A stretch of 64,000 bases of DNA from an uncultured Pelagibacteraceae bacterium (GTDB taxonomy: Bacteria; Pseudomonadota; Alphaproteobacteria; Pelagibacterales; Pelagibacteraceae), in contig CACFTE010000005.1 in the NCBI GenBank assembly GCA_902569105.1, positions 1 to 64,000 of the forward strand, given 5' to 3'. The position numbers were made by a program, and so were the translations under genes. Numbering within the stretch: position 1 is the first letter of the stretch; each line of letters begins with the position of its first letter. Positions 1 through 36,430 of this stretch are shown here, piece after piece. The notes under the pieces were generated by a model that saw only the letters and a program-made list of their open reading frames with translations, had not been told where the DNA came from and did no database searches.

Positions 1-2294
1 TTTTTATTTACATAAGAGAATGCAATGCTTTTATTAACATAATGGGCAAAACCGCCTGATGTAACATATCCTATACTTTTATCTTTTTTCATAACGGCCT
101 CATTGTTAGTTACATCGATATCATTTGTTTGAACAATTAAAGGGACAAGTTGATTTGAGCTATTATCTTTTTTAGCATTTTCTTTTCCAATAAACTCTTT
201 ATCCCAATTTATAAATATATTTAAACCAGTCTCTTTTGCAGTAAAATCAGGTCTATAGTCTAATGTCCAGGCACCCCAATTTTTTTCTAATCTCATTGAC
301 ATTAGCGCTCTTCCACCAAATGGTTTAATATTAAATTCTTTTCCAGCTTCCATAATTTCTTCATAAAGTTTTAGTTGAAAATGAGGAGCTACATAAATTT
401 CATAACCTAATTCTCCAGTAAAAGAAATTCTATTTACAATAGCAGGAACTCCACCCACAAACATATGTCTAGAGTCCCTAAATTTTAATTTTGTATTTGA
501 AACATCATCTCTTGTTATTTTTTGAAGTAACTCTCTAGATCTTGGTCCAGCAATCGATAAGCCATGAAATTCATCTGATCTATTATTATATGACACATTA
601 AATTTATTAATATGACTTTCAAACCATCGTCTATGCATTTCTTGTGCAGCACCTGAACCAAAAACCATAAAATCATTTTCATCAAAACATGCTACTGTTA
701 AATCGCCATACAATTTTCCTCTATAAGAAAGCATTGGTGACAAAGAAATTCTTCCTGGTTTAGGCAACCTTCCAGCTAAAATATGATCTAAAAATTTTCT
801 TGCATCGGGTCCTTTGAATTCGTGTTTAGAAAAATTTGCAACCTCTATCACTCCTACATTTTCTCTAACATTAATTACCTCTTTAGAAACATAGTTGTGC
901 GATCTTGATCTTTTGATAGTTGGTTCTTCAAATGCATCTTCTTTATTTTTAGCAAACCACAGTACATTTTCTAAACCAAAACTATCTCCCATAACTGCAC
1001 CTTGTTGTACAAATCTATCATAAAGGGCTGTAGTTTTTTGTTTTCTTCCTTTTGGTAAAGTCTCGTTAGGAAAAGTCATAATAAATCTTCTTTCATAGTT
1101 TTCAGAAGATTTAATTGTTCCATATTGAGGAGATGCATAATTTCCAAATCTTGCAACGTCCATTGCCCAAACATCTATTGAAGGTTCGCCGTCTATAATC
1201 CATTCTGCAATACATTTTCCAACTCCACCACCTTGGCAAAAACCTGCCATTACACCTACTGCCACCCAATAATTTTTTAAACCTGGTACTGGTCCAATTA
1301 AAGGGCTTCCGTCTGGACCAAAAGTAAATGGTCCATTTACAATATTTTTAATTCCAGCTTTTTCAAGTGCTGGCATTCTTTCAAATCCGATTGCTAATCT
1401 ATCTTGAATATTATCAAGCTTAGGTTCTAATAATTCGTGACCAAAGTTCATTGGGGTTCCTTCTACTTTCCAAGGTGTAGATTTTGGCTCATATGTCCCA
1501 AGCAACATTCCTTTACCTTCTTGCCTAAAATAGATATTTCCCTCAAAATCTGTTCCTATCGGTAATCTTTGATCTCCCATTGCTTCTATTTCTGGGATTG
1601 CCTCTGTAATTAGATAGTGATGTTCCATTGGTTGAACCGGTAGATTTAAACCAGCTAGTTGACCAACCTCTCTAGCCCATAAACCTCCAGCGTTAATCAC
1701 TATTTCTGCGTTAATATTTCCTTTTTCAGTAACAACATCCCATGATCCATCTTTTCTTTGTTTAGTATCCTTAACAACTGTATGAGTATAATATTTTCCA
1801 CCATAAACTTTAGCTGCTTTTGCAAATGCATAAGTAACTCCAGATGGGTCAACCTCACCATCTATTGGATCCCAAAGTGCTAAAAGATATCGCGACGGAT
1901 CAATTAATGGGTTCTTCTTTTTAACTTCCTCAAGAGAAATAAACTCTTGATCAAGACCCATATATCGAGCTTTTGATCTCTCTCTTTTTAGATAATCAGC
2001 CCAAGTTTCATTTGATGCTAAGTAAAAACCACCACTTGCTTTAAAACCCACAGAATGGCCAGACTCTTTTTCAATCTCTTTATATAGACCTATGGTATAA
2101 GCCATCATTCTAGAAATATTTGGGTCATTTGAAATTACATGTACATTTCCAGCAGCATGCCAAGAAGATCCTGAAGTAAGTTCATTCCTTTCTAAAAGAA
2201 TACAATCTTTTAATCCAAATTTTGAAAGGTGGTAAAGTATTGAACAACCAACTACACCACCTCCAATAATTACTACCTTAGCATTTTTTTCCAT
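1..2294 (-). CDS. FAD-dependent dimethylglycine/sarcosine dehydrogenase-like protein with C-terminal GcvT domain (3' end truncated by window edge)
   Basis: Not in the ORF track because it runs off the window. Reverse-strand reading from ATG at 2294 gives MEKNAKVVIIGGGVVGCSILYHLSKFGLKDCILLERNELTSGSSWHAAGNVH..., a Rossmann GxGxxG motif and DMGDH-like signature, followed by GcvT-like sequence (GPRSRELLQ..., SFTGELGYEIYV). Confidence 0.88.
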   Translation of the reverse strand, partial: MEKNAKVVIIGGGVVGCSILYHLSKFGLKDCILLERNELTSGSSWHAAGNVHVISNDPNISRMMAYTIGLYKEIEKESGHSVGFKASGGFYLASNETWADYLKRERSKARYMGLDQEFISLEEVKKKNPLIDPSRYLLALWDPIDGEVDPSGVTYAFAKAAKVYGGKYYTHTVVKDTKQRKDGSWDVVTEKGNINAEIVINAGGLWAREVGQLAGLNLPVQPMEHHYLITEAIPEIEAMGDQRLPIGTDFEGNIYFRQEGKGMLLGTYEPKSTPWKVEGTPMNFGHELLEPKLDNIQDRLAIGFERMPALEKAGIKNIVNGPFTFGPDGSPLIGPVPGLKNYWVAVGVMAGFCQGGGVGKCIAEWIIDGEPSIDVWAMDVARFGNYASPQYGTIKSSENYERRFIMTFPNETLPKGRKQKTTALYDRFVQQGAVMGDSFGLENVLWFAKNKEDAFEEPTIKRSRSHNYVSKEVINVRENVGVIEVANFSKHEFKGPDARKFLDHILAGRLPKPGRISLSPMLSYRGKLYGDLTVACFDENDFMVFGSGAAQEMHRRWFESHINKFNVSYNNRSDEFHGLSIAGPRSRELLQKITRDDVSNTKLKFRDSRHMFVGGVPAIVNRISFTGELGYEIYVAPHFQLKLYEEIMEAGKEFNIKPFGGRALMSMRLEKNWGAWTLDYRPDFTAKETGLNIFINWDKEFIGKENAKKDNSSNQLVPLIVQTNDIDVTNNEAVMKKDKSIGYVTSGGFAHYVNKSIAFSYVNK

Positions 2295-3340
2295 TAGTAT
2301 TTATTTCTCATGCTTGTGTTTATCTCTTTTAAGGATTTATCTGTCCCATGTAAAAAATGTTTACTCATATTTGGGTAATATTTATATGATATTGGTTTTC
2401 TACCTAAAGCAACTGCCATTTCTCTAACATGATGAGGCTCTGCTCCACAGCAAATACCGATCAAGTTTATTTTTTGTTTTTGACAATCCTTTGCAAACTC
2501 AGCCATTTCAAATCTGTTACAATACAAATTGTCTAACGCAACAGGAAATGCATTTCCACCAGGTATACAATCACAACCATGGTCAGTTTGATTCAAAAAA
2601 CCTGGCTCCTCTTCAGTTGTTCTATACGGAACTGGTAAGGCAGCAACATGACAGGAAACTTTTTCTCTTATTTCTGGCAAAAGTTTCATTGTCATCTTTG
2701 GTCCTCTATAGCAATTTAACCCTACTACATCAGCTCCAAGATCCTCCATTATTTTGCAAGCATCACCTGGGGTATGTCCTTCTCTTGTCTTATCACCTTT
2801 TTTTATAGAAAAATTTGTTACCGCAATTAAACCTTCATCCTTTATAGCTTTAAGTGCAATTTTCATCTCCTCAGTCCAATTTATTGTTTCTGCAACTATA
2901 AAATCTACACCTGCCTCTTTTGCCCAAGCAACTTGTTCCTCATACATTTTTTGACACTGGGAATGACTTTTTTTATCATTGGGATCATAAATATTTGTAT
3001 TAGCTACATCGCCACAAACCAACAAGTTAAGATCTTTAAATTCGTCTCTTGCATCTTTTGCTATTTGAAGAGCATTTTTTTGTAAAGGTTCCAATAAATC
3101 CTCTTTACCAATTATACGTAACTTTTCTCTATGCCCATAATATGTAAACGCTTGGACAATATCGCTCCCAGCTCTTATAAATTCTCTATGCAGTTGAGAA
3201 ACAACTTCTGGATGTTCTAATACCACTTCTGGAACGAATGCACCTGCTGATAAATAACCTCTTCTTTCCATTGCAAATAAATATCCTTCTGCAAAAAGAA
3301 CAGGTCCTTCATTTAATCTTGTTATTAAATCTTTTGTCAT
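2294..3340 (-). CDS. bhmT: Betaine-homocysteine S-methyltransferase family protein
   Basis: 348 aa; homocysteine methyltransferase features including VGLNCYRGP and the C-terminal GICCGAEPHHVREMA zinc-cysteine motif. Stop overlaps the start of the DMGDH-like gene by 1 nt. Confidence 0.85.
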   Translation of the reverse strand: MTKDLITRLNEGPVLFAEGYLFAMERRGYLSAGAFVPEVVLEHPEVVSQLHREFIRAGSDIVQAFTYYGHREKLRIIGKEDLLEPLQKNALQIAKDARDEFKDLNLLVCGDVANTNIYDPNDKKSHSQCQKMYEEQVAWAKEAGVDFIVAETINWTEEMKIALKAIKDEGLIAVTNFSIKKGDKTREGHTPGDACKIMEDLGADVVGLNCYRGPKMTMKLLPEIREKVSCHVAALPVPYRTTEEEPGFLNQTDHGCDCIPGGNAFPVALDNLYCNRFEMAEFAKDCQKQKINLIGICCGAEPHHVREMAVALGRKPISYKYYPNMSKHFLHGTDKSLKEINTSMRNKY

Positions 3341-3632: not shown

Positions 3633-4652
3633 ATGAAAATAAAAAACATAATTATTTCTGCTTTAGTTTTGCTAGGTTTCACTTCATTTTCTGGAATTGC
3701 AAACGCTAAATGTGGAAAGCTAGTTATTGCTGAGCAAAACTGGGCGTCAGCTGAATTAATGGCTAACGTAGATAAAATTATCTTAGAGGAAGGTTACGGT
3801 TGTGACGTGGAACTTGTTCCAGGTGCTACAATGCCAACTTTTACCTCTATGAATGATAAAGGATCACCTGACATGAATCCTGAACAATGGGCTAATGCAG
3901 TTTATACACCATTAAAAAAAGCAGTAAGTGAAAAAAGATTAATTATTGCTAATGGTGCGCCAATTACTGGTCTTGGTGAAGGTTGGTGGTTAAATCCAGC
4001 AGCTTTAAAAAAACACCCAGAACTAAAAGGTATGACAGCTGTTCAAATTTTAGAACGTCCTGATTTATTTCCTGATAAAGAGGATCCTTCAAAAGGTGCT
4101 TTCATGGGATGTCCTGCTGGTTGGGGTTGTCAGTTAGCAAACGCAAATCTTTTTAGAGCATTTGATATGGAAAAAAAAGGTTGGAAGCTAATTGACCCAG
4201 GTTCAGCTGCAGGTTTAGATGGCTCTATTGCAAAAGCTTCAGACTCTGGTGAACCTTGGTTTGGATATTACTGGAACCCTACATCAATGGTTGGAAAATA
4301 TAATTTACAACCAGTTGATTTTGGAGTGCCATTTGCTGGAAGAGATAACTGGGATAATTGTATAACACTTGCAGAGCAAGATTGTGCAAATCCAAAACCA
4401 ACGGCTTGGACAAAATCAGAAGTTAACTCAATAGTAACAGCTAATTTTGCGAAGACTGGTGGAAAAGAAGCTTTAAGTTATGTTGAAAAAAGAGTATTTC
4501 CTGGTGAAGTAATGAATGGAATGCTTGTTTACATGGCTGACAACCAAGCAAAAGGATCTGATGCAGCAGTTGAATTTTTAATTAAGCATGAAGATGTTTG
4601 GACTAAATGGGTATCTTCGTCAGCTGCAAAAAAAATCAAAAAAAGTTTATAA
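3633..4652 (+). CDS. Glycine betaine/proline-type ABC transporter substrate-binding protein (OpuAC/ProX family)
   Basis: Signal peptide (MKIKNIIISALVLLGFTSFSGIANA) followed by OpuAC-like sequence (VIAEQNWASAELMANVDKIILEEGYGCDVELVPG). Confidence 0.88.
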   Translation: MKIKNIIISALVLLGFTSFSGIANAKCGKLVIAEQNWASAELMANVDKIILEEGYGCDVELVPGATMPTFTSMNDKGSPDMNPEQWANAVYTPLKKAVSEKRLIIANGAPITGLGEGWWLNPAALKKHPELKGMTAVQILERPDLFPDKEDPSKGAFMGCPAGWGCQLANANLFRAFDMEKKGWKLIDPGSAAGLDGSIAKASDSGEPWFGYYWNPTSMVGKYNLQPVDFGVPFAGRDNWDNCITLAEQDCANPKPTAWTKSEVNSIVTANFAKTGGKEALSYVEKRVFPGEVMNGMLVYMADNQAKGSDAAVEFLIKHEDVWTKWVSSSAAKKIKKSL

Positions 4653-4664
4653 TAACTTAAATTT

Positions 4665-4694
4665 AACGAGCCTATTTAAAAAATAGGCTCGTTT
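4665..4694 (+). terminator. Intercistronic stem-loop between SBP and permease genes (attenuator or RNA-stabilising hairpin)
   Basis: Perfect 13-bp inverted repeat AACGAGCCTATTT-aaa-AAATAGGCTCGTT, followed by only a short T stretch. Confidence 0.7.
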
Positions 4695-4709
4695 ATAGAA
4701 AAAATAATT

Positions 4710-5594
4710 ATGGAATTTTTAACTGAATTTCCTGAGCTAGGTAGACGATCACAAATGGAGCTAAGAAAAGGTATAGACTTAGCTTTTAGAAATTTTTCAA
4801 GAGAGTACGGAGATGGAATTGAAGCTTTTTTTGATCCATTATTATTTTTTTTAGTTTCATTAGAAAAACTATTATTATCAACACCATGGGTTATAATCAT
4901 TGGTGTAATTTGTGGTTTAGCTTGGTTAGGTTCAAGAAGTTGGAAACTTGTTGTTGGAAGTGCAATTGCTTTTTTATTAATTGGTTATTTTGGCATGTGG
5001 GAAGATTGCATGGCAACAGTTGCTATTATTACTGTATGCACAATTATATGTATTGTTGTTGGAATACCAATAGGAATTGTTATGTCAAGATCTGCAAGAG
5101 CAGAAAGGACTATACTGCCTGTATTAGATATGATGCAAACAATTCCAAGTTTCGTATATTTAATTCCTATACTAATGTTGTTAGGAATAGGTAAAGTACC
5201 AGGCTTGATAGCTGTTTGTGTCTATGCTGTTCCTCCAATAATTAGATTGACTAATTTGGGGATTAGAGAAGTAGATAAAGAGACTTTAGAGGCTAGTGAG
5301 GCATTTGGCGCAACCACTGTTCAGAAGCTAAAATCGGTTCAAATACCTCTAGCATTACCAACTGTCTTTGCCGGAGTTAACCAAACAATTATGATGGCAC
5401 TTGCCATGGTCGTCATTGCATCAATGATTGGAGTAAAAGGGCTTGGGGTGCCAATTTTAAGAGCGGTATCAAATCAATACCTGGCTCTTGGTTTATTTAA
5501 TGGCTTAGCAATAGTTGCTCTAGCAATAGTATTCGACAGGGTCACCCAAGAGTATGGAAGAAGAATTCAGAAGCATAGAGGCCAGAGAAAGTAA
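4710..5594 (+). CDS. Betaine-type ABC transporter permease (ProW/OpuAB family)
   Basis: 294 aa multi-TM protein with binding-protein-dependent transport motif (EASEAFGATTVQKLKSVQIPLALPTVFAGVNQTIMMALAMVVIASMIG). Confidence 0.9.
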   Translation: MEFLTEFPELGRRSQMELRKGIDLAFRNFSREYGDGIEAFFDPLLFFLVSLEKLLLSTPWVIIIGVICGLAWLGSRSWKLVVGSAIAFLLIGYFGMWEDCMATVAIITVCTIICIVVGIPIGIVMSRSARAERTILPVLDMMQTIPSFVYLIPILMLLGIGKVPGLIAVCVYAVPPIIRLTNLGIREVDKETLEASEAFGATTVQKLKSVQIPLALPTVFAGVNQTIMMALAMVVIASMIGVKGLGVPILRAVSNQYLALGLFNGLAIVALAIVFDRVTQEYGRRIQKHRGQRK

Positions 5595-5635
5595 AATTTT
5601 CTAGACAGTTATTGTAAAATAAATAAATATCTCGA

Positions 5636-6364
5636 ATGAATTTTTCAATTGAGATTAGTCCATCTACTGACCTTGAAACATTACCGGCTTTAAAAGATGT
5701 TTATATTACCCTTTTGCCTGGTGGTAATTTTAAGGATACAGCAGATCAGGCTGAAAAATTGGTTAAAAAAGGATTTAATCCAATACCTCACATTCCTGCT
5801 AGATCAATTGAGAGCGAAACACAACTAAAAGAATACCTTTCTAGATGTAAAGACGGAGGAACAAAACAAGTCTTAGTAATTGGTGGTAGTAGAGAACCTA
5901 TTGGACAGTTTGATAGTTCCTTTCAGCTTCTAGAAACTGGTTATTTTGAGGATATGAAGATTGGAATTGCTGGACACCCTGAAGGGAGTCCTGATATATC
6001 TGACTCAAATTTAGAAAAAGCTATGAACGATAAAAAGCCTTATGCTGACTATATAGTTACTCAATGGTTACTAGATCCTCAGCCAATCATAGATTTCATT
6101 TCTAAACAATCAGTACCAGTTCATGTTGGAATTACTGGACCTTTAAAAATTACAAGCTTAATAAAGTTTGCGAATATTGTTGGGGCAAAAAATTCCTTAA
6201 ACTTTCTTAAATCTAATTTTAGTAAGGCGTTAGATTTAATGAAACCTAAAGACCCTAATGATTTAATTGGGAAGGTTAAATCGCATACTGATAACTTCCA
6301 CATTTATACATTCGGCGGCTTGAAGGAAACTAACAAGTGGTTGATGGAGAATAAATATGTCTAA
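5636..6364 (+). CDS. Methylenetetrahydrofolate reductase (MetF)-like protein, shorter than typical MetF
   Basis: 242 aa; MTHFR-like TIM barrel segments (PHIPARSIESETQLKEYLSRCKDGGTKQVLVIGG; IGIAGHPEGSPD; DYIVTQWLLDPQPIIDFI). Confidence 0.75.
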   Translation: MNFSIEISPSTDLETLPALKDVYITLLPGGNFKDTADQAEKLVKKGFNPIPHIPARSIESETQLKEYLSRCKDGGTKQVLVIGGSREPIGQFDSSFQLLETGYFEDMKIGIAGHPEGSPDISDSNLEKAMNDKKPYADYIVTQWLLDPQPIIDFISKQSVPVHVGITGPLKITSLIKFANIVGAKNSLNFLKSNFSKALDLMKPKDPNDLIGKVKSHTDNFHIYTFGGLKETNKWLMENKYV

Positions 6365-7715
6365 AGAGTTTGATTATAGTAAAATGAGACATGTAACGTC
6401 AGTAAATCAAACTGACAGAAAGGTTCCGTATAATTTAAGACAAAGCGGACCTACAAAAGTAGAAATGCTAATTTCAACAAGGGTAAGAAAATCACCTTAT
6501 TGGCATTTATCAATGAAAGCAGGTTGTTGGAGAGCAACTGTATACAATCGTATATATCACCCAAGAGGATATGTAAAACCTGAAGATGGTGGAGCAATGG
6601 TTGAGTACGATGCAATTGTAAATCATGTAACCATGTGGAATGTTGCAGTTGAAAGACAAATACAAGTTAAAGGTCCAGATGCAGAAAAATTTGTGGATTA
6701 TGTAATTACTAGAGATGCAACAAAAATTTCACCAATGAGAGCAAGATATGTAATTCTATGTAATCAATACGGTGGAGTATTAAATGATCCTATACTTTTA
6801 AGAATTTCTAAAGATGAGTTTTGGTTTTCATTATCAGATAGTGATATCGGAATGTATTTACAAGGAGTAAATGCTGATGGAAGATTTAATTGTGAAATAC
6901 ATGAAATAGATGTATCTCCAGTTCAAATACAAGGACCAAAATCAAAAGCATTAATGCAAGATCTTTGTGGTGACCAAGTTGATTTTGATAATATACCATT
7001 CTATGGTTTAGCATCTGCAAAAATTGGAGGGAGAAGTTGCATAATATCTCAATCAGGTTTTTCAGGAGAAGCTGGTTATGAAATATATCTAAGGGAATCT
7101 ACTCTTTATGCAGAGGATATGTGGAATGCAGTGCTTGATGCAGGGAAAAAACATCAACTAATGGTTATTGCACCAGCACATCACAGAAGAATTCAAGCAG
7201 GAATTCTTTCTTGGGGTCAAGACATGGATCATCAACACAATCCTTACCAGTGTAATTTGGGTTATCAAGTTTCATTATCAGGAAAAGGTGAGTGGAATAA
7301 AAAAGGTGATTATGTTGGTAAAAAAGTCTTAGAAGCGATGGGAGCTGAAATTAAAGCTGGAAAAAAACCTTATGCACTTCAATTAGTTGGTATGGAGTTA
7401 GGCGGAAAACCTATTGATGATTATGCGCCAGATTTTTGGTTAATTTCCAACGATGATGGTGGAGAACCTGTGGGTTTTATAACATCGCCATGGTGGCATC
7501 CTGAGAAAAAAACTAACATTGCAATGGGTTACGTGCCTTTTGATGGCACATTAAATGCAAATGGTTTTCCAAAAGGTAAAGTTGGTACTAAATATAAAGT
7601 TCATTTACCTGAAAAATATTCAGATAATCCAGGACAACCAGTACATGCAGTTGTTGTTGATATTCCTTTTAAAGAATCTTTCAATGCAAACACAAGAGAA
7701 GTTGTAAAAGGTTAA
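6357..7715 (+). CDS. GcvT-fold THF-dependent aminomethyltransferase/demethylase-like protein
   Basis: 452 aa; GcvT/DmdA/LigM-type motifs (VQIQGPKSKALMQDL, SQSGFSGEAGYEIYL, GRRI/RIQAGILSWGQD). Overlaps the MTHFR-like ORF by 8 nt. Confidence 0.8.
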   Translation: MSKEFDYSKMRHVTSVNQTDRKVPYNLRQSGPTKVEMLISTRVRKSPYWHLSMKAGCWRATVYNRIYHPRGYVKPEDGGAMVEYDAIVNHVTMWNVAVERQIQVKGPDAEKFVDYVITRDATKISPMRARYVILCNQYGGVLNDPILLRISKDEFWFSLSDSDIGMYLQGVNADGRFNCEIHEIDVSPVQIQGPKSKALMQDLCGDQVDFDNIPFYGLASAKIGGRSCIISQSGFSGEAGYEIYLRESTLYAEDMWNAVLDAGKKHQLMVIAPAHHRRIQAGILSWGQDMDHQHNPYQCNLGYQVSLSGKGEWNKKGDYVGKKVLEAMGAEIKAGKKPYALQLVGMELGGKPIDDYAPDFWLISNDDGGEPVGFITSPWWHPEKKTNIAMGYVPFDGTLNANGFPKGKVGTKYKVHLPEKYSDNPGQPVHAVVVDIPFKESFNANTREVVKG

Positions 7716-28757: not shown

Positions 28758-30911
28758 TTAATCAATGCCTAGGTGTTTTTTTCTTTGTCCTACCCAAGTT
28801 CTAATCAAGTTATCAAATATCAAACCTATAAATGCTACACAAATACCAAGAGTTAATCCTATTCCAGCTCCATTTTTATCTGAAAGAGCTTTAAGGATGT
28901 ATTGTCCCAAATCTTCTGTTCCTATAAATGCTCCTATTATCACCATAAACAAAGCAAAAACTATAGTTTGATTAAGACCAAGCATCATATGTGGAAATGC
29001 TAATGGAAATTCTATTTTTGTTAATCTTTGGAATTTATTTACTCCTGACATTGTTGCCGCATCGTGTAGACCTGCTGGAACACTTCTTAATCCTTCAATT
29101 GTATATCTTGTTGCAGGTATTGTTGCGTAAACTATAACAGCTATCAATACAGATGTATCAGTGATTCCAAAAAGCATCATAACTGGTATCAAATAAACAA
29201 AAGAGGGGAATGTTTGAAATATATCGCATACACCAAGCATAAAAGCAGCTGCACGTTTGCTTTGGAAACATAAAGTTCCAACTGTAAATCCAATTGCACA
29301 AGACATAATTACTCCAAAAGTTGCCATGTACGTTGTAACCAAGGCTCTATCCCACCACGGGCTTAAAGCTATAAATAAAGTTAATCCAAAAACAACTAAA
29401 GCGGAACGAATTCCACCAATTAAATATCCCGCTCCTACAACTAAAACTAAGGTAGCTACTGCCGGCATTCTTAAATATAAAGCTCGCATTGGCTGAAGGA
29501 CTTCAACAATCAGCCAGGTATTAAATGCTTTTATATATACAAAAAAAGTATCAAAAATCCAGTCAACACCTTTATTCCAAAAATCTGCTGTTGATATTCC
29601 CTTATTATGTGGAACTTCAAATAAATAATTAAATGTATCTTTGAATATAAAAGTTCCAACATAAGCAAGTATAATTCCTATAATTACTGATGCGCCAAAA
29701 AATAAAGAATTTTTATTTCTTTGGTAGAATGTAAGATTTCCAAAATAATCTGTTTGTTTATTCGCCCAAGCTAAAGACATTTTATCTAAAAGAATTGCAA
29801 TTAAACTAATACATAGTCCTGCCTCTAAAGCTAATCCAATATTTAATTGGTTTAAAGCTAATAATAAATTAAATCCTAAACCTTTTGCACCTATAAAGGC
29901 CGAAATAACAGCCATAGAAAAACAAACCATGATTACTTGGTTCACCCCTATTAGGATATCTCTTCGTGCAGTTGGAATTAAAACTTTTGTCATCAATTGC
30001 CAATTATTACATCCGCTCATTCTGCCTGCTTCGATTACTTCTGGAGGTACTGCTCTTAGACCCAATAAAGTTAAAAGTATCATTGGGGGAACAGCAACAA
30101 TCATAGTTATAATTACAGCGGCATGATCTCCTACTCCAAAAAGAACAAGTGCTGGGACTAATACTGCATATTGTGGCATTGTTTGCATAACTAGAAGTAT
30201 GGGATATAACGCTTTTTCAACACGTTTACTTTTATATGCTGCTACACCTAATCCTAAACCAAATATAAATGACAATGGTGCTGCTACTAATATAAATGAT
30301 AGCGTTTGCATAGATGGCTTCCACTGACCAAATATAGAAATATAAACCATTACTAAACCAGCAAATATAGCTAAACCCTTGCCACTTAATTTGTATGCAA
30401 GTATAGCGAAACCAGCGGCAACAATTGTCCAAGGTAGACCTGGTAACTCTGCCCAAGGATTTTTATCAATCCAATCCCAGCTAGTAAACGCTACAATTGT
30501 TTCAAGTCCACCTAATAAAGTTTCTCTAATTAAAAATATTAAAAATGTCATAAATGAAGTTAAGGTTCTTGATATTTCTAATACTAGTGGTCTAGTTTTA
30601 TATTCTTGTGTATCTTCATTCCAAAATTCCATTGGCATCCACTCATTCATTAAAAAAAATAATGAATCATTGATCCAAATAGGTAGCCATCCAAGAAGTG
30701 GTGGTAGTCTCCAAAATACATCAAAAGCGTAATACCTTACTTCTTTACCTAAAAAAACATATGTACTTTGATTTGGGTCTTTTACAAATTCTGCTTGTCC
30801 TCTTATAAATTTGTATGTTTCAGGAACATCGATAGAAAAACATAAAGCAAAAAATATGATTAATAAAAATAACCATTGAAATAATTTTGGATATTTTTTT
30901 AAGTAATCCAT
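28758..30911 (-). CDS. tmoW: TMAO/betaine-type ABC transporter permease with two fused permease domains (TmoW-like)
   Basis: 717 aa with two separate permease cores, each carrying an EAA-like loop (VPPEVIEAGRMSGCNNWQLMTKVLIP and VPAGLHDAATMSGVNKFQRLTKIEFP). Confidence 0.85.
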   Translation of the reverse strand: MDYLKKYPKLFQWLFLLIIFFALCFSIDVPETYKFIRGQAEFVKDPNQSTYVFLGKEVRYYAFDVFWRLPPLLGWLPIWINDSLFFLMNEWMPMEFWNEDTQEYKTRPLVLEISRTLTSFMTFLIFLIRETLLGGLETIVAFTSWDWIDKNPWAELPGLPWTIVAAGFAILAYKLSGKGLAIFAGLVMVYISIFGQWKPSMQTLSFILVAAPLSFIFGLGLGVAAYKSKRVEKALYPILLVMQTMPQYAVLVPALVLFGVGDHAAVIITMIVAVPPMILLTLLGLRAVPPEVIEAGRMSGCNNWQLMTKVLIPTARRDILIGVNQVIMVCFSMAVISAFIGAKGLGFNLLLALNQLNIGLALEAGLCISLIAILLDKMSLAWANKQTDYFGNLTFYQRNKNSLFFGASVIIGIILAYVGTFIFKDTFNYLFEVPHNKGISTADFWNKGVDWIFDTFFVYIKAFNTWLIVEVLQPMRALYLRMPAVATLVLVVGAGYLIGGIRSALVVFGLTLFIALSPWWDRALVTTYMATFGVIMSCAIGFTVGTLCFQSKRAAAFMLGVCDIFQTFPSFVYLIPVMMLFGITDTSVLIAVIVYATIPATRYTIEGLRSVPAGLHDAATMSGVNKFQRLTKIEFPLAFPHMMLGLNQTIVFALFMVIIGAFIGTEDLGQYILKALSDKNGAGIGLTLGICVAFIGLIFDNLIRTWVGQRKKHLGID

Positions 30912-30914
30912 ATT

Positions 30915-31946
30915 TTAATTACTATTTTTTCTTCCTCCAAAAACTGTGTTAATTATTTTTGTAGGATTGATAGAACCGATTACTTTATTGTTTTCATCTG
31001 TAACGGCCACTGATTTTTCTTGAGAAAGAATTTTTTCAGCCACATTTTCTATGACTTCATCTTTTGAAACCTTTAAATCACCTACATCCTCTGTAATTGA
31101 TGTATCCATTACATCTTCTATTAATAAAACTTTTTCTCTTGGCACTTCTTCAGTGAATTTTCTCACATATTCAGTCGCAGGATTTAAAACAATTTTTGCA
31201 GGAGTGTCTAATTGCTCAATTATACCATCTTTCATAATTGCAATACGGTCAGCAAGTTTTAAAGCTTCATCAAAATCATGCGTAATAAACATAATTGTTT
31301 TTTGTAATTTTTCCTGAAGTCTTAAAAACTCATCTTGCATTTCTTTACGAATTAAAGGGTCTAATGCAGAAAAAGGTTCATCTAAAAACCATATATCAGG
31401 TTCCACTGCTAAGGATCTTGCTATTCCTACCCTTTGCTGTTGACCACCTGAAAGTTCTCTTGGAAAATAATTTTCTCTTCCATCTAGGCCAACTAATTTA
31501 ACCATATCCATTGCTTTGCTAATACTATCTTCAGTTTTAATTCCCTTAATTTGAAGTGGAAAGGCAATATTTTCAACTACTGTTTTATGAGGCAGCAAAG
31601 CAAAACTTTGAAAAACCATTCCCATTTTATTTCTTCTAAGGTCTATAAGTTCTTTATTATTTAATTTTAGAAGATCCTGACCTTCAATAAAAATTTTTCC
31701 ACCTGTTGCATCTGTCAATCTGGATATACATCTTAACAATGTTGATTTGCCTGAACCTGATAGGCCCATTACGACCAACATTTCTCCTTTTGAAACTTCA
31801 AATGAAGCATTATTGACACCCACAATGCATCCATTATCTTGGAAAGTTCTAGCATCAACATTACCATTTGATTCTTGAAGCATTTTTTCTGCATTTGCTC
31901 CGAAAATTTTATAAACATTCTCACATTTAATAACTGGTTCTGACAT
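30915..31946 (-). CDS. tmoV: TMAO/betaine-type ABC transporter ATPase (TmoV-like) with C-terminal regulatory extension
   Basis: Walker A GLSGSGKSTLLR, signature LSGGQQQRVGIARS, Walker B WFLDEP. Confidence 0.88.
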   Translation of the reverse strand: MSEPVIKCENVYKIFGANAEKMLQESNGNVDARTFQDNGCIVGVNNASFEVSKGEMLVVMGLSGSGKSTLLRCISRLTDATGGKIFIEGQDLLKLNNKELIDLRRNKMGMVFQSFALLPHKTVVENIAFPLQIKGIKTEDSISKAMDMVKLVGLDGRENYFPRELSGGQQQRVGIARSLAVEPDIWFLDEPFSALDPLIRKEMQDEFLRLQEKLQKTIMFITHDFDEALKLADRIAIMKDGIIEQLDTPAKIVLNPATEYVRKFTEEVPREKVLLIEDVMDTSITEDVGDLKVSKDEVIENVAEKILSQEKSVAVTDENNKVIGSINPTKIINTVFGGRKNSN

Positions 31947-32010
31947 AAATTATTAATTAAATTATATGAAATTAATATAAAATTAAATCTATTTAATTAG
32001 TATTTTCCCC

Positions 32011-32589
32011 CTAAAAGTTTTTTATAAAATATACCCTTGTATCAATACCAGTACTTAAAAAGCTTAATGCTTCTCCACTAACAGTAATTGACTCGTTTAC
32101 TCCTACATTATCTCCACTTACAGTAAAGCCAGCAAAACATTTATTTTCTTCTTTATCCCATTTTACATATGTATCATCTATTTTATTTCCATTTATTGTA
32201 TAAATTTCATGCGCTCTAAAATTTAAAAAATTTGCACCCATAATCGCACGTTGTGGTATAAGTTTTGTTGCTTTGCAAACCTGCTCGTAAATATCATCTG
32301 TTAGTTTGTAGTGATCTGTACCATCAAAAGTTACTAATATCCCTGATGGAAGTTTTGATATTAATTCACTAAGTTTTTTTTCTTGTGCAATTCTCTCTTC
32401 CTCTATTTTCATTTTTTCTACTAATTCATCACCTTCCCCAAACATGACATTTAAAATAAAAAAAAATGAAATTACTATAATTGTTACTATGACTAAGCCT
32501 GCAAACTGTCTGAAAAATTCTGGTAATTCTTTAATTCTATTTTGGTAATTTTCTTTTAACATTATTCTTGTAACTTTCCATTTTGCCAA
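32011..32589 (-). CDS. Membrane-anchored hypothetical protein, 192 aa
   Basis: Single TM helix (AGLVIVTIIVISFFFILNVMF) followed by extracytoplasmic domain. Confidence 0.7.
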   Translation of the reverse strand: MAKWKVTRIMLKENYQNRIKELPEFFRQFAGLVIVTIIVISFFFILNVMFGEGDELVEKMKIEEERIAQEKKLSELISKLPSGILVTFDGTDHYKLTDDIYEQVCKATKLIPQRAIMGANFLNFRAHEIYTINGNKIDDTYVKWDKEENKCFAGFTVSGDNVGVNESITVSGEALSFLSTGIDTRVYFIKNF

Positions 32590-32939
32590 ATTCCAGATTT
32601 TTGCGATCCATCAGACCAAGTAAAGGTGCCCTTGCCATTCATAAAACCATTAGCCCATTCTCCTTCATATGTTGATCCATCTGGAAAAGTTAGCACACCT
32701 ATGCCGCTCCATTCACTATTCTTGAATTCGCCTTTATAAATATATCCGTTAGGCCAAGTCTCAACTCCTTGGCCATTTTTTTTTGTACCTACCCACTCAC
32801 CTTCATAAGTTGTTTTATCTGTATAAACCCATTTACCATAACCATTTTCGCAATTTCCCTCCTTGCATCCAGTACTACGAGCTAATGCAACAGATGAGAT
32901 GAATAAACTTAAAATAATGCTTATAAGAATTTTTTTCAT
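32562..32939 (-). CDS. Secreted MORN-repeat protein
   Basis: Signal peptide and repeated YEGEW.../YKGEF.../YEGEWANGxMxGKG units. Confidence 0.88.
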   Translation of the reverse strand: MKKILISIILSLFISSVALARSTGCKEGNCENGYGKWVYTDKTTYEGEWVGTKKNGQGVETWPNGYIYKGEFKNSEWSGIGVLTFPDGSTYEGEWANGFMNGKGTFTWSDGSQKSGIWQNGKLQE

Positions 32940-32962
32940 TTTATTATTTTACACATTATTGA

Positions 32963-33000
32963 TAAAAAAAAAATCCCCCCCAACATGGTCGGGGGAGATT
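32963..33000 (-). terminator. Intrinsic terminator/attenuator after tmoX
   Basis: Reverse strand AATCTCCCCCGACCATGTTGGGGGGGATTTTTTTTT: ~10-bp stem (one G-U) followed by poly-U. Confidence 0.85.
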
Positions 33001-33022
33001 TCTAAAATTTATTAGCTAAACC

Positions 33023-33970
33023 TTATTTAGTAAAAGCTTGCCAAACTTTCTTGTTATCTTTCAGCCATTTTTTAGCTGCATCTTCGTGAGTCATTTTGTC
33101 AACATCAACTAAAGCTGCCATTGCACCAATTTGACTTGTTGAAAACGAAAGTTTTTTGAACATTGCTGCCGCTTTTGGATGAGTTTTTGGAAAGTCAGCA
33201 TTTACTGCTTTTTTCAAATAACCATCTGGCGAACCACATTTTCCATCTCCACCATCTTCTGGTCTACAACCAGCTGTATATGGAGGAAAGTCTATAAATG
33301 TAAAACCAGCACCATCTGTAAAGTTAGGTGTCCAGTTAAAGATGATTGTTCCTCTTCCTTCTTTTTCAGCAGCTGCTAATTCCGCCCAAAGTGCATCCGC
33401 ACTTCCAGCAAATTTAACCCACCAAAGATCTCCTAAACCTAAAGCGTCAACCCTTTGTGGAATTAAGTCACCGTGCCAAGTTTGTGGACCTTCCAACATT
33501 CTTCCTTTTCCATCCGGAGAGTCAGGTGTTGTAAAGTTTTTTGCACAGTCAGGATTTTTTAAAGCAGTCCAGTCTGGTAGACCTGGGCATAATCCTTTTT
33601 CTGCAACCCAATTAGGATATCCCATATCCTCAAGTGTTCTTGCTTCATGGTCACCCCAATCAAGCAATCCACCTTTATCTAGAGCTGTTGTGAATGATTT
33701 ACCAAAAGCAGATTCCCATACCTCGTGAGATATAGTAACGTCACCAATTCTAATTGACTCGTATACTGCTTGTGAGTCAGCATTTACGTATTTTACGTTA
33801 TTACCCATGCTTTCCATAATTCCACCGATAACGTAAGCCATTACAATTTGACTTGACCAGTTATGAGTTGGGATTACGATGGGCTTTTTACTATCTGCCG
33901 AGTTAGCAATTCCAGCAAAAGAAACAGCTGAAATTATTACTGCAGATAAAAATGATATTATTTTTCTCAT
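33023..33970 (-). CDS. tmoX: TMAO/betaine-type substrate-binding protein (TmoX-like)
   Basis: Signal peptide MRKIISFLSAVIISAVSFAGIANSA; PIVIPTHNWSSQIVMAYVIGGIMESMGN. Track start at 34030 appears too long; ATG at 33970 has a good AGGGG ribosome-binding site. Confidence 0.85.
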   Translation of the reverse strand: MRKIISFLSAVIISAVSFAGIANSADSKKPIVIPTHNWSSQIVMAYVIGGIMESMGNNVKYVNADSQAVYESIRIGDVTISHEVWESAFGKSFTTALDKGGLLDWGDHEARTLEDMGYPNWVAEKGLCPGLPDWTALKNPDCAKNFTTPDSPDGKGRMLEGPQTWHGDLIPQRVDALGLGDLWWVKFAGSADALWAELAAAEKEGRGTIIFNWTPNFTDGAGFTFIDFPPYTAGCRPEDGGDGKCGSPDGYLKKAVNADFPKTHPKAAAMFKKLSFSTSQIGAMAALVDVDKMTHEDAAKKWLKDNKKVWQAFTK

Positions 33971-34093
33971 TTTTCCCCTTTCCTTAATATTAAGTAAGTT
34001 AATTAAAAGCATTATTGGTAAAAAGATCAATCAATATTTTTATATATAAAAATTATAAATAGTTTTATATTATTATTTAAATATAAGCATTTA

Positions 34094-36430
34094 ATGAAAA
34101 CAAGTTTTGATATCAAAGAACCGGGATTAAATGTCTTACCACCTGGAGTTGAGCGTCATGTAATTAATGGTGGAGGACTAACCGGCTTACAAATTTTTCC
34201 TGATGATGAAATTGAAATCATTAATGATGAAGGAAATCAAGTTTGTGAAATTGTTGTATTTGATAAAAATGGAAAATCTGATCTTGGAATATTAAATCTT
34301 AAAGAAAATTCAAAAAATTCGGAAATAAAAAAAATCTTAACTAGCAAAAATGAGAGTTCTTTAATTGCAAACCACCAACTTAAAAAAAGAAATTTAGATA
34401 TTACAAAGTCAAAATCTTCATTGATTTTTAGTAAAGACTCAATTTCAGGCGATAAAATTAATTTTAAATCAAAAGATAAGTGTTACGTTATTTTTGCCGC
34501 TCCAGGAGAAGATATGTTGGTACACGAACAAAATCCTGTAACAGATTTAACAATATTTATTAAAAGAGCAAATGTAATAAATGATAAAGAATTATCTGTA
34601 ATTCCAGATCCTGTATACGATCCAAAGCATGAACAGAATATTGATAGAACTACAGCAATTTCATATGAAGTAAAAGAAGGAGACTATATTCAAGTTATTA
34701 CACCAACTGGGAGACAATGCTCTGACTTTGTAGCATTTGATACTCAAAAATTAGATAAAAAAATAGAAAAAGGATTGGACTGGCAAACTACAAGGACTTT
34801 TATGGGTCATACTTTTCCAGGACCAGGTTTATTTTCGAAATTTTATGATACTGATCATCAGCCATTAGTAGAAGTTATAAGAGATACAGTTGGAAGACAC
34901 GATACTTTCAATTTGGCATGTACCTCAAAATATTATGAAGATGCAGGTTATTTTGGACATGCAAATTGCTCAGATAATTTAAGTAATGCAATGGAGCAAT
35001 ATGGAGTTCAAAGAAAAAAAGGTTGGCATGCAATAAACTTATTTTTTAATACTTCAGCAGGCGGATTAAACTCTGTGCTATCTGATGAATCTTTTGCAAG
35101 GCCTGGAGATTATGTTTTATTTAAAGCTTTGAAAGATATAACTGTTGGTACTTCAGCATGTCCAAGTGATATTGATGCATGTAATTCATGGAATCCTACA
35201 GATATTTTTGTTAGAACTTATGACGGAAAAAAAGAATTTAAAAAATCTTTTGCATTTAGAATGAAAACAGATTCAGAAAAAAAACTTACCAAACACTCTG
35301 GTTTCTATGAAAGAACATCTAAACTTACTAGAAATTTTGTAGACGCAAGAGGTTTTTGGTTACCAAATGATTATACGAAAAGTGGTTTGGTTAATGAATA
35401 CAACGCATGTAGGGAGCAAGCTGTATTAATTGACCTATCTTCTCTAAGAAAATTTGAAATTTTAGGACCAGATGCAGAAGAATTAATGAATTACACTCTA
35501 ACAAGAAATATTAAAAAACTTTCTGTAGGACAAGTTGTGTATTCAGCAATGTGTTATGAAAATGGAATGATGTTTGATGATGGAACTTTATTAAAATTAA
35601 GTGACACTGGTTATAGATGGATATGTGGTGATGAATACGGTGGAGAATGGTTAAAAGAAGTTGCGAAGAAAAAAAATTACAAAGTAATCATTAAAAATTC
35701 AACTGATCAAATTAGCAACGTTTCTATTCAGGGTCCAAATAGTAGAAAAATTTTAAATAAATTAATATTTACTCCTCCAACTCAGCCAACAATTGATGAG
35801 CTGCAATGGTTCAGATTTACTATATGCAGAATGGATGATTTAAATGGCATTCCCTTAGTGATATCTAGAACTGGATATACAGGCGAATTAGGTTATGAGG
35901 TTTGGTGCCACCCTAAAGATGCTCCTAAAGTTTGGGATAAATTAATGGATGCAGGAAAAAATGACGGATTAATTCCAGCAGGGTTTGCTGCATTAGACAA
36001 ACTTAGAATAGAAGCTGGTTTAATACTATTTGGAAATGAATTTGATGGTCAACAAGATCCTTTTGAGGCAGGCATTGGTTTTGCAGTTCCTTTAAAAACA
36101 AAAGAAGATGATTTTATTGGAAAAAAAGTTTTAGTTGAAAGAAAAGCAAACCCACAAAAAAAATTGGTCGGTCTTGAATTGATTGCTAAAGAACCTGCTG
36201 CACATGGAGATTGTGTTCATGTGGGAAGAGCACAAATTGGAATAGTTACAAGCGCATGTTTTTCAACAATTCTTAATAAAAATATCGCATTATGTAGAAT
36301 TGATCCTCAATACTCAGACATTGGCACTGAAGTAGAAGTAGGTAAAATTGATGGTCATCAAAAAAGAATTTCTGCTAAAGTAGTTAGATTTCCATTCTAC
36401 GATCCAGACAAAACAAAAGTAAGATCATAA
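34094..36430 (+). CDS. tdm: DUF1989 + GcvT fusion, trimethylamine N-oxide demethylase (Tdm) type
   Basis: 778 aa; Cys-containing DUF1989-type motifs (GRQCSDFVAFD, ACPSDIDACNSWNPTD) and C-terminal GcvT (SRTGYTGELGYEVW). Confidence 0.87.
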   Translation: MKTSFDIKEPGLNVLPPGVERHVINGGGLTGLQIFPDDEIEIINDEGNQVCEIVVFDKNGKSDLGILNLKENSKNSEIKKILTSKNESSLIANHQLKKRNLDITKSKSSLIFSKDSISGDKINFKSKDKCYVIFAAPGEDMLVHEQNPVTDLTIFIKRANVINDKELSVIPDPVYDPKHEQNIDRTTAISYEVKEGDYIQVITPTGRQCSDFVAFDTQKLDKKIEKGLDWQTTRTFMGHTFPGPGLFSKFYDTDHQPLVEVIRDTVGRHDTFNLACTSKYYEDAGYFGHANCSDNLSNAMEQYGVQRKKGWHAINLFFNTSAGGLNSVLSDESFARPGDYVLFKALKDITVGTSACPSDIDACNSWNPTDIFVRTYDGKKEFKKSFAFRMKTDSEKKLTKHSGFYERTSKLTRNFVDARGFWLPNDYTKSGLVNEYNACREQAVLIDLSSLRKFEILGPDAEELMNYTLTRNIKKLSVGQVVYSAMCYENGMMFDDGTLLKLSDTGYRWICGDEYGGEWLKEVAKKKNYKVIIKNSTDQISNVSIQGPNSRKILNKLIFTPPTQPTIDELQWFRFTICRMDDLNGIPLVISRTGYTGELGYEVWCHPKDAPKVWDKLMDAGKNDGLIPAGFAALDKLRIEAGLILFGNEFDGQQDPFEAGIGFAVPLKTKEDDFIGKKVLVERKANPQKKLVGLELIAKEPAAHGDCVHVGRAQIGIVTSACFSTILNKNIALCRIDPQYSDIGTEVEVGKIDGHQKRISAKVVRFPFYDPDKTKVRS

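Follow-up and report, generated by a model that had tools for sequence, protein, structure and literature searches.

The window analyzed here is a stretch of 64,000 nucleotides beginning at the start of a contig (C5) from the 1.04-Mb, 84% complete assembly of a SAR11 bacterium (Pelagibacteraceae). Close to this start, the gene of a short protein related to methylenetetrahydrofolate reductase (MTHFR), here called MetF, overlaps the gene of a GcvT-like protein, for which we propose a function as tetrahydrofolate (THF)-dependent demethylase of glycine betaine. An earlier note on this DNA had described four collinear genes, and a recheck of coordinates and strands confirmed their positions on the + strand as well as the metF/gcvT overlap of 8 nt. 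Two divergent genes directly upstream, encoding a homocysteine S-methyltransferase and a DAO+GcvT fusion protein, had been left out of that note. The locus comprises:

3-2294, - strand: FAD-dependent oxidoreductase (DAO)+GcvT fusion, dimethylglycine dehydrogenase (DMGDH)-like, accessory cassette; DAO-, SoxA- and GcvT-type NCBIfam matches; C-terminus off the start of window and contig
2294-3340, - strand: betaine-homocysteine methyltransferase (BHMT) paralogue, divergent from the following gene, accessory cassette; PF02574, 151 bits
3633-4652, + strand: OpuAC-type substrate-binding protein (SBP), DmpX-like, accessory cassette; 339 aa; PF04069, 149 bits
4710-5594, + strand: ProW/ChoW-type permease, accessory cassette; 294 aa; BPD_transp_1, 89 bits; TIGR03416, 265 bits, under the cut-off of 363
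5636-6364, + strand: short MTHFR-like protein (MetF, SAR11_1264 type), putative 5-methyl-THF oxidase; 242 aa
6357-7715, + strand: GcvT-fold methyltransferase (SAR11_1265 type), putative THF-dependent glycine betaine demethylase; 452 aa

In the contig search, the 80 best-matching relatives of the GcvT-like protein all came from Pelagibacteraceae/Pelagibacterales (90-98% identity). Our comparison within SAR11 covered 80 loci, many of them from near-identical single-cell genomes, so that the loci are not independent. In 76 of the 80 a complete metF overlapped gcvT by the identical 8 nt, while the remaining four had lost the upstream side at a contig end; the pair is thus co-conserved at 76/76 checkable loci, an adjacency far beyond chance. 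The importer behaved differently. Upstream sequence of 8.5 kb or more was available at 57 loci, of which 37 had the full cassette of SBP, permease, BHMT paralogue, DAO+GcvT protein and Rieske oxygenase; the other 20 had no importer and carried instead another DAO+GcvT protein of approximately 811 aa, whose gene was followed, in the loci examined, by electron transfer flavoprotein genes. Because the importer is missing from 20 loci that keep metF-gcvT, it lies outside the core, which is metF-gcvT alone; the importer goes with the BHMT/DAO cassette. It had been counted as part of the module before, and as a defining partner of the pair it was ruled out by the comparison of the 80 loci. A Rieske oxygenase gene was present upstream of metF at 51/57 loci (L013-L088) in varying positions, and the oxygenases of the two arrangements were about 65% identical to each other. 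The oxygenase has no assigned family: its nearest solved structure was carnitine monooxygenase (CntA), and the nearest NCBIfam model was GbcA, whose cut-off of 670 bits is far above the 125 bits scored.

As a gene pair, metF-gcvT has been published. Excerpts of Sun et al. (2011, PMC3160333) place SAR11_1264 (metF) of Ca. Pelagibacter ubique HTCC1062 beside SAR11_1265, a probable aminomethyltransferase without an assigned substrate, described as DmdA-related and near single-copy in metagenomes. It was speculated there to take off the second methyl group in the degradation of dimethylsulfoniopropionate (DMSP), that of methylmercaptopropionate (MMPA). The window pair was equated with SAR11_1264/SAR11_1265 by gene content and order rather than by sequence alignment. 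Since the same reasoning appears in these excerpts, the module can no longer be called undescribed; the demethylase/MetF idea is largely published, and it is the substrate and the wider family that we did not find in the open-access literature. Smith et al. (2016, PMC5069961) also list both genes among those with declining mRNA levels in stationary phase.

The GcvT-like protein matched Pfam GCV_T (PF01571) with 137 bits and failed every curated subfamily cut-off: 231.4 vs 410 bits for DmdA (NF009133), 34.5 and 38.4 vs 580 and 800 for the LigM and DesA equivalogs, 147 and 124 vs 300 and 235.85 for GcvT. A separate GcvT precedes a GcvP-like gene on contig C10 of the source genome. Among 385 alphaproteobacterial genomes, 17 besides the source genome encoded a protein of at least 65% identity, below which there was a gap down to 51% and then to 40% or less. 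The sample of 399 genomes taken from the whole phylum included four outside the Alphaproteobacteria with a family protein (64-68% identity); we call them 'gammaproteobacteria' on the basis of gene content, without a check of their names. Haloarchaeal plasmids contributed homologues of 50-57% identity across 91-97% of the length, and the members from other alphaproteobacteria, gammaproteobacteria and haloarchaea ranged from 50 to 82%. The SAR11, other proteobacterial and haloarchaeal proteins formed one clade in a maximum-likelihood tree (support 98/100), apart from three DmdA on their own branch (100/99); hence the GcvT-like protein does not fall inside the characterised DmdA clade. A set of DmdA-like paralogues, some of which adjoin osmC and an acyl-CoA synthetase gene, was likewise placed outside the family. 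On Phaeobacter and Loktanella plasmids (L194 7318-12049, L195 5322-10121) such paralogues are the gcvT-like member of a cluster that runs Lrp, gcvT-like, osmC, enoyl-CoA hydratase, acyl-CoA synthetase. Another one (L210, contig C1 of G535) adjoins MetF and FolD genes and possibly represents a second demethylase-MTHFR module.

An alignment of 30 homologues from alphaproteobacteria, gammaproteobacteria and haloarchaea disclosed 122 invariant positions. They included E242 and Y244, the equivalents of the folate-contacting E204 and Y206 of DmdA, and N143-D144 (DmdA N107/D108); the DmdA-like N-D-P motif was kept. The folate-site residues are therefore in place. All 30 members carried Phe235 at the site of Trp197 in SAR11 DmdA. 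A Trp has been reported as a DMSP-specific contact (position 171 in the PeerJ 2020 numbering), which we mapped to Trp197. Nevertheless, the exchange was dropped as proof against DMSP, as two Roseobacter DmdA have Tyr there and the site is not diagnostic. The predicted structure reached a pLDDT of 63.7 with a shallow alignment, most of the first 82 residues being unreliable. P. ubique DmdA (3tfh) was the closest solved structure by sequence and the top fold match of this moderate-confidence model. By fold and folate-site residues, the protein qualifies as a predicted member of the general type of THF-dependent GcvT-fold demethylases.

For the MetF-like protein, the PDB search gave the firmer identification, because the Pfam MTHFR score (20.4 bits) was below the cut-off of 24, while the sole PDB match, MTHFR of Sphingobium SYK-6 (7xg9, S6MTHFR), had an E value of 2.8e-33 with 34% identity over the aligned part. 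In sequence the protein is thus akin to S6MTHFR rather than to the E. coli-type MetF. For S6MTHFR, an oxidation of 5-methyl-THF that serves LigM-dependent metabolism has been reported (PMC12585457). A profile search revealed no other MTHFR in the source genome, though its sensitivity was limited, as it also missed the window copy, and the assembly is 84% complete; a search with the MetF of a GbdR cluster (see below) found the window copy only. SAR11 has been reported to be devoid of MetE, MetH and MtgBCDE (PMC12478193), and therefore there is no other obvious use of methyl-THF. For the same reason, methyl-THF derived from DmdA would need MetF too. That this MTHFR is devoted to the GcvT-like enzyme, as the earlier note had it, is accordingly not upheld: no second MetF was detected in this 84% complete genome, whose DmdA would need one as well. 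We also observed that the Asp of the VIAGD motif, which the MTHFR relatives from SYK-6, the GbdR cluster (G535) and haloarchaea possess, is absent from the MetF of SAR11 and of G337/G030 (GGSREP/GGGG), in which a Glu of the N-terminal strand is kept all the same.

To study the neighbourhood outside SAR11, 9.5 kb around 25 family loci were compared with 22 loci of same-fold paralogues by Fisher tests, whose p values are guides only, since family loci supplied some of the marker queries and are themselves interrelated. Genes of the DMGDH/sarcosine oxidase type occurred near 15/25 family loci and 2/22 paralogue loci (p 0.0006); restricted to SAR11-derived queries, the counts were 12 and 2 (p 0.004). 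MetF was close to 12/25 and 1/22 loci, respectively (p 0.001). DmdB showed the opposite distribution (0/25 vs 7/22, p 0.003), and neither DmdB nor DmdC was present within 9.5 kb at any of the 25 family loci. On the haloarchaeal plasmids an MTHFR gene lay close to the family gene in 5/6 loci. The surrounding islands contained, in varying sets, genes for a betaine/choline/carnitine (BCCT) transporter, one or two DMGDH-like (DAO+GcvT) oxidases, FolD, formate-THF ligase, serine hydroxymethyltransferase and serine/threonine ammonia-lyase; Haloarcula sp. GH36 was the sole one of the six without island genes. The family homologue of Haloarcula hispanica is HAH_RS18290. A paper of 2011 (PMC3102087) had already pointed out the haloarchaeal pairing of BCCT transporter and dimethylglycine oxidase without deciding whether betaine is used.

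Three non-alphaproteobacterial genomes of one genus shared the order gcvT-like, metF, fhs, gbdR, L-serine ammonia-lyase and DMGDH-like, metF being seen only as fragments in one of them (G442). The GbdR of these clusters passed its curated cut-off (500.8 vs 480 bits). Two of these three genomes, both of 100% completeness (G535 and G502), were searched for other enzymes of the first step. No MttB, no Rieske alpha subunit and no GbcA were detected in them and, besides MetH, only MmuM-like homocysteine methyltransferases, none of which was BHMT-like. Thus, the GcvT-like protein was the only candidate seen there for the conversion of betaine to dimethylglycine. GbcA absence is informative only in such GbdR-type clusters; taken alone it is weak evidence, as a match at E 1e-100 is likewise absent from the majority of genomes that do not carry the core family.

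The importer of the window gave a less uniform picture. The best PDB match of the SBP was RnDmpX (7yle; E 1.9e-52, 35% identity), and seven of the eight residues of its DMSP pocket, including Tyr200, were identical (WTWEWGYW vs WTWEWAYW, Ala153 replaced by Gly), while the TmoX-like SBP of the same genome reads WSWYWHFW at these sites. Such a pocket argues for DMSP or, generally, a betaine-type ligand, whereas the enzymes around the SBP (BHMT paralogue, DMGDH-like protein) argue for glycine betaine. A Kd of 100 nM has been published for the homologue of HTCC7211 (PMC10030565), a possible orthologue of the window SBP. Two SBP types occur in the SAR11 cassette (63-65% vs 81-99% identity), with Gly at the Ala153 site in 26 loci and Asn in 22, and perhaps bind different ligands. 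No ATPase gene was located beside SBP and permease; candidates are ProV-like proteins encoded at 30915-31946 and on contig C15. The latter contig (L196 3-5999) harbors a second betaine-type permease and the ProV-like ATPase, then short-chain dehydrogenase/reductase, 295-aa protein, thioesterase-like and TauD-like genes, a possibly carnitine-type cluster. A trimethylamine N-oxide cluster at 28758-36430 comprises the TmoX-like SBP (33023-34030, - strand), a ProV-like ATPase, a 717-aa double permease and Tdm (34094-36430, + strand; 1082 bits vs a cut-off of 1100). The BHMT paralogue of the window is 50% identical to the main bhmT of the genome, which is located elsewhere and preceded by a SAM-V riboswitch (L096 5020-5086, 77 bits). 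A riboswitch at the divergent promoter of the paralogue was considered and rejected, as the window contained no S-adenosylmethionine (SAM) or other riboswitch even at a relaxed threshold.

Gene order, co-conservation, an own clade, the folate-site residues and the neighbourhood were seen in the sequence; from them we infer the reaction, the substrate and the direction of MetF. The GcvT-like protein would demethylate glycine betaine, or a close quaternary ammonium compound, and hand the methyl group to THF, yielding dimethylglycine and 5-methyl-THF. The overlapping MetF would oxidise the latter to 5,10-methylene-THF, which could then enter the path of FolD, formate-THF ligase and formate dehydrogenase. 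A division of labour might result in SAR11, with the SAM-V-controlled Bhmt serving methionine synthesis and the metF-gcvT pair serving energy. This reading, in which the enzyme demethylates glycine betaine with THF as acceptor, needs neither cobalamin nor O2 and supplies an oxidative MTHFR, we consider probable at roughly 55%. The chances are about even that it stands for a further first-step route of betaine catabolism, a transfer to THF free of cobalamin, O2 and homocysteine, which would belong to the SAR11 core and be common to other marine proteobacteria and haloarchaea. The broader statement of the earlier note, a GcvT-fold onium demethylase coupled to an oxidative MTHFR of the SYK-6 type, is the best reading in view of the clade, the folate residues and the 7xg9 match. 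Its candidate substrates have been narrowed: the non-SAR11 neighbourhood points to glycine betaine, dimethylglycine and sarcosine, DMSP is a possibility chiefly because of the DmpX-like SBP, and there was no evidence for homarine or trigonelline.

A THF-dependent N-demethylase for a different quaternary or tertiary amine, such as carnitine, proline betaine, choline or even dimethylglycine, which would take glycine betaine as a side substrate only, appears unlikely, even though the neighbouring Rieske oxygenase of SAR11 resembles carnitine monooxygenase most and differs among lineages, and some of the haloarchaeal copies have creatininase genes in their vicinity. What the lineages share as context is the dimethylglycine/sarcosine branch, which follows glycine betaine by one step, and GbdR is named for choline/betaine metabolism. 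We are rather sceptical about a DMSP route, either by a second DMSP demethylase or by an enzyme taking the second methyl group from MMPA. The closeness to DmdA in sequence and fold, the conserved DmpX pocket of the adjacent SBP and the published speculation on SAR11_1265 would all agree with it. However, the genome already possesses a dmdC-dmdB-dmdA operon on another contig, the DmdB/DmdC counts outside SAR11 point the other way, the haloarchaeal and GbdR-type clusters resemble betaine clusters, and many SAR11 keep the gcvT-like gene without the importer. Very improbable, finally, is a free-standing T-protein-like partner that would pass formaldehyde-level one-carbon units from neighbouring oxidases into methylene-THF instead of methyl-THF. 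The GcvT fold and the frequent vicinity of sarcosine- and dimethylglycine-oxidising enzymes would suit it, but those oxidases have a GcvT domain of their own, the strict partner in SAR11 is MetF, required only for methyl-THF, and the N-D-P motif is that of DmdA.

Several observations weigh against the proposed glycine betaine demethylase. Its nearest relative of known function, DmdA, is an S-demethylase, the adjoining SBP is DmpX-like, and Bhmt is already available in SAR11. When the queries were limited to SAR11-derived ones, a DMGDH/sarcosine oxidase neighbour was found in only 6/15 lineages, and six loci (L138, L141, L142, L143, L150 and L167) had no betaine-pathway marker nearby at all. 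One family genome (G730) contains a genuine GbcA and another (G301) a near-GbcA and three MttB; in both, no DMGDH/sarcosine oxidase gene lies beside the family gene. The only reported expression data, an approximately 10-fold lower SAR11_1265 mRNA level in stationary phase (PMC5069961), favour no substrate.

SAR11 is a major consumer of glycine betaine, which ranks among the chief osmolytes of the sea. Bhmt, the proposed route of betaine demethylation in SAR11, is bound to homocysteine and to control by SAM riboswitches, an arrangement hard to reconcile with the use of betaine as a fuel. If our proposal is true, a THF-linked demethylase would uncouple the energetic use of betaine from Bhmt and homocysteine, account for the orphan metF-gcvT pair seen in every sampled SAR11 locus, and identify the first step that has been lacking for the betaine islands of haloarchaea and for GbdR clusters that have no GbcAB. 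A known orphan pair thereby gains a new, testable functional prediction, well anchored in its haloarchaeal and other bacterial relatives.

Among known systems, DmdA (3tfh; NF009133) shares with the GcvT-like protein the GcvT fold and the N107/D108, E204 and Y206 equivalents, and supposedly, by analogy, an onium methyl donor and THF as the acceptor. It differs by an identity of 25% in the structural alignment, the separate clade, a length of 369 aa as compared to 452 aa with an extra N-terminal region, the neighbours dmdB/C/D, which are not beside the GcvT-like gene, and Trp197 (SAR11 DmdA) in place of Phe235. LigM is an aryl O-demethylase, against whose cut-off of 580 bits the protein scores 34.5; together with S6MTHFR of Sphingobium lignivorans SYK-6 it follows the same logic of demethylase and oxidative MTHFR, and the MetF of the window is of the S6MTHFR type. 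The SAR11_1264/SAR11_1265 pair of Sun et al. corresponds in organism group, gene order and the reasoning from metF and an aminomethyltransferase; in the excerpts MMPA was the guessed substrate, and relatives outside SAR11 and the importer cassette are not discussed there. GbcAB, MtgBCD and Bhmt achieve the same net step as proposed here, glycine betaine to dimethylglycine, but GbcAB needs O2, MtgBCD cobalamin and Bhmt homocysteine, whereas the putative enzyme would use THF directly.

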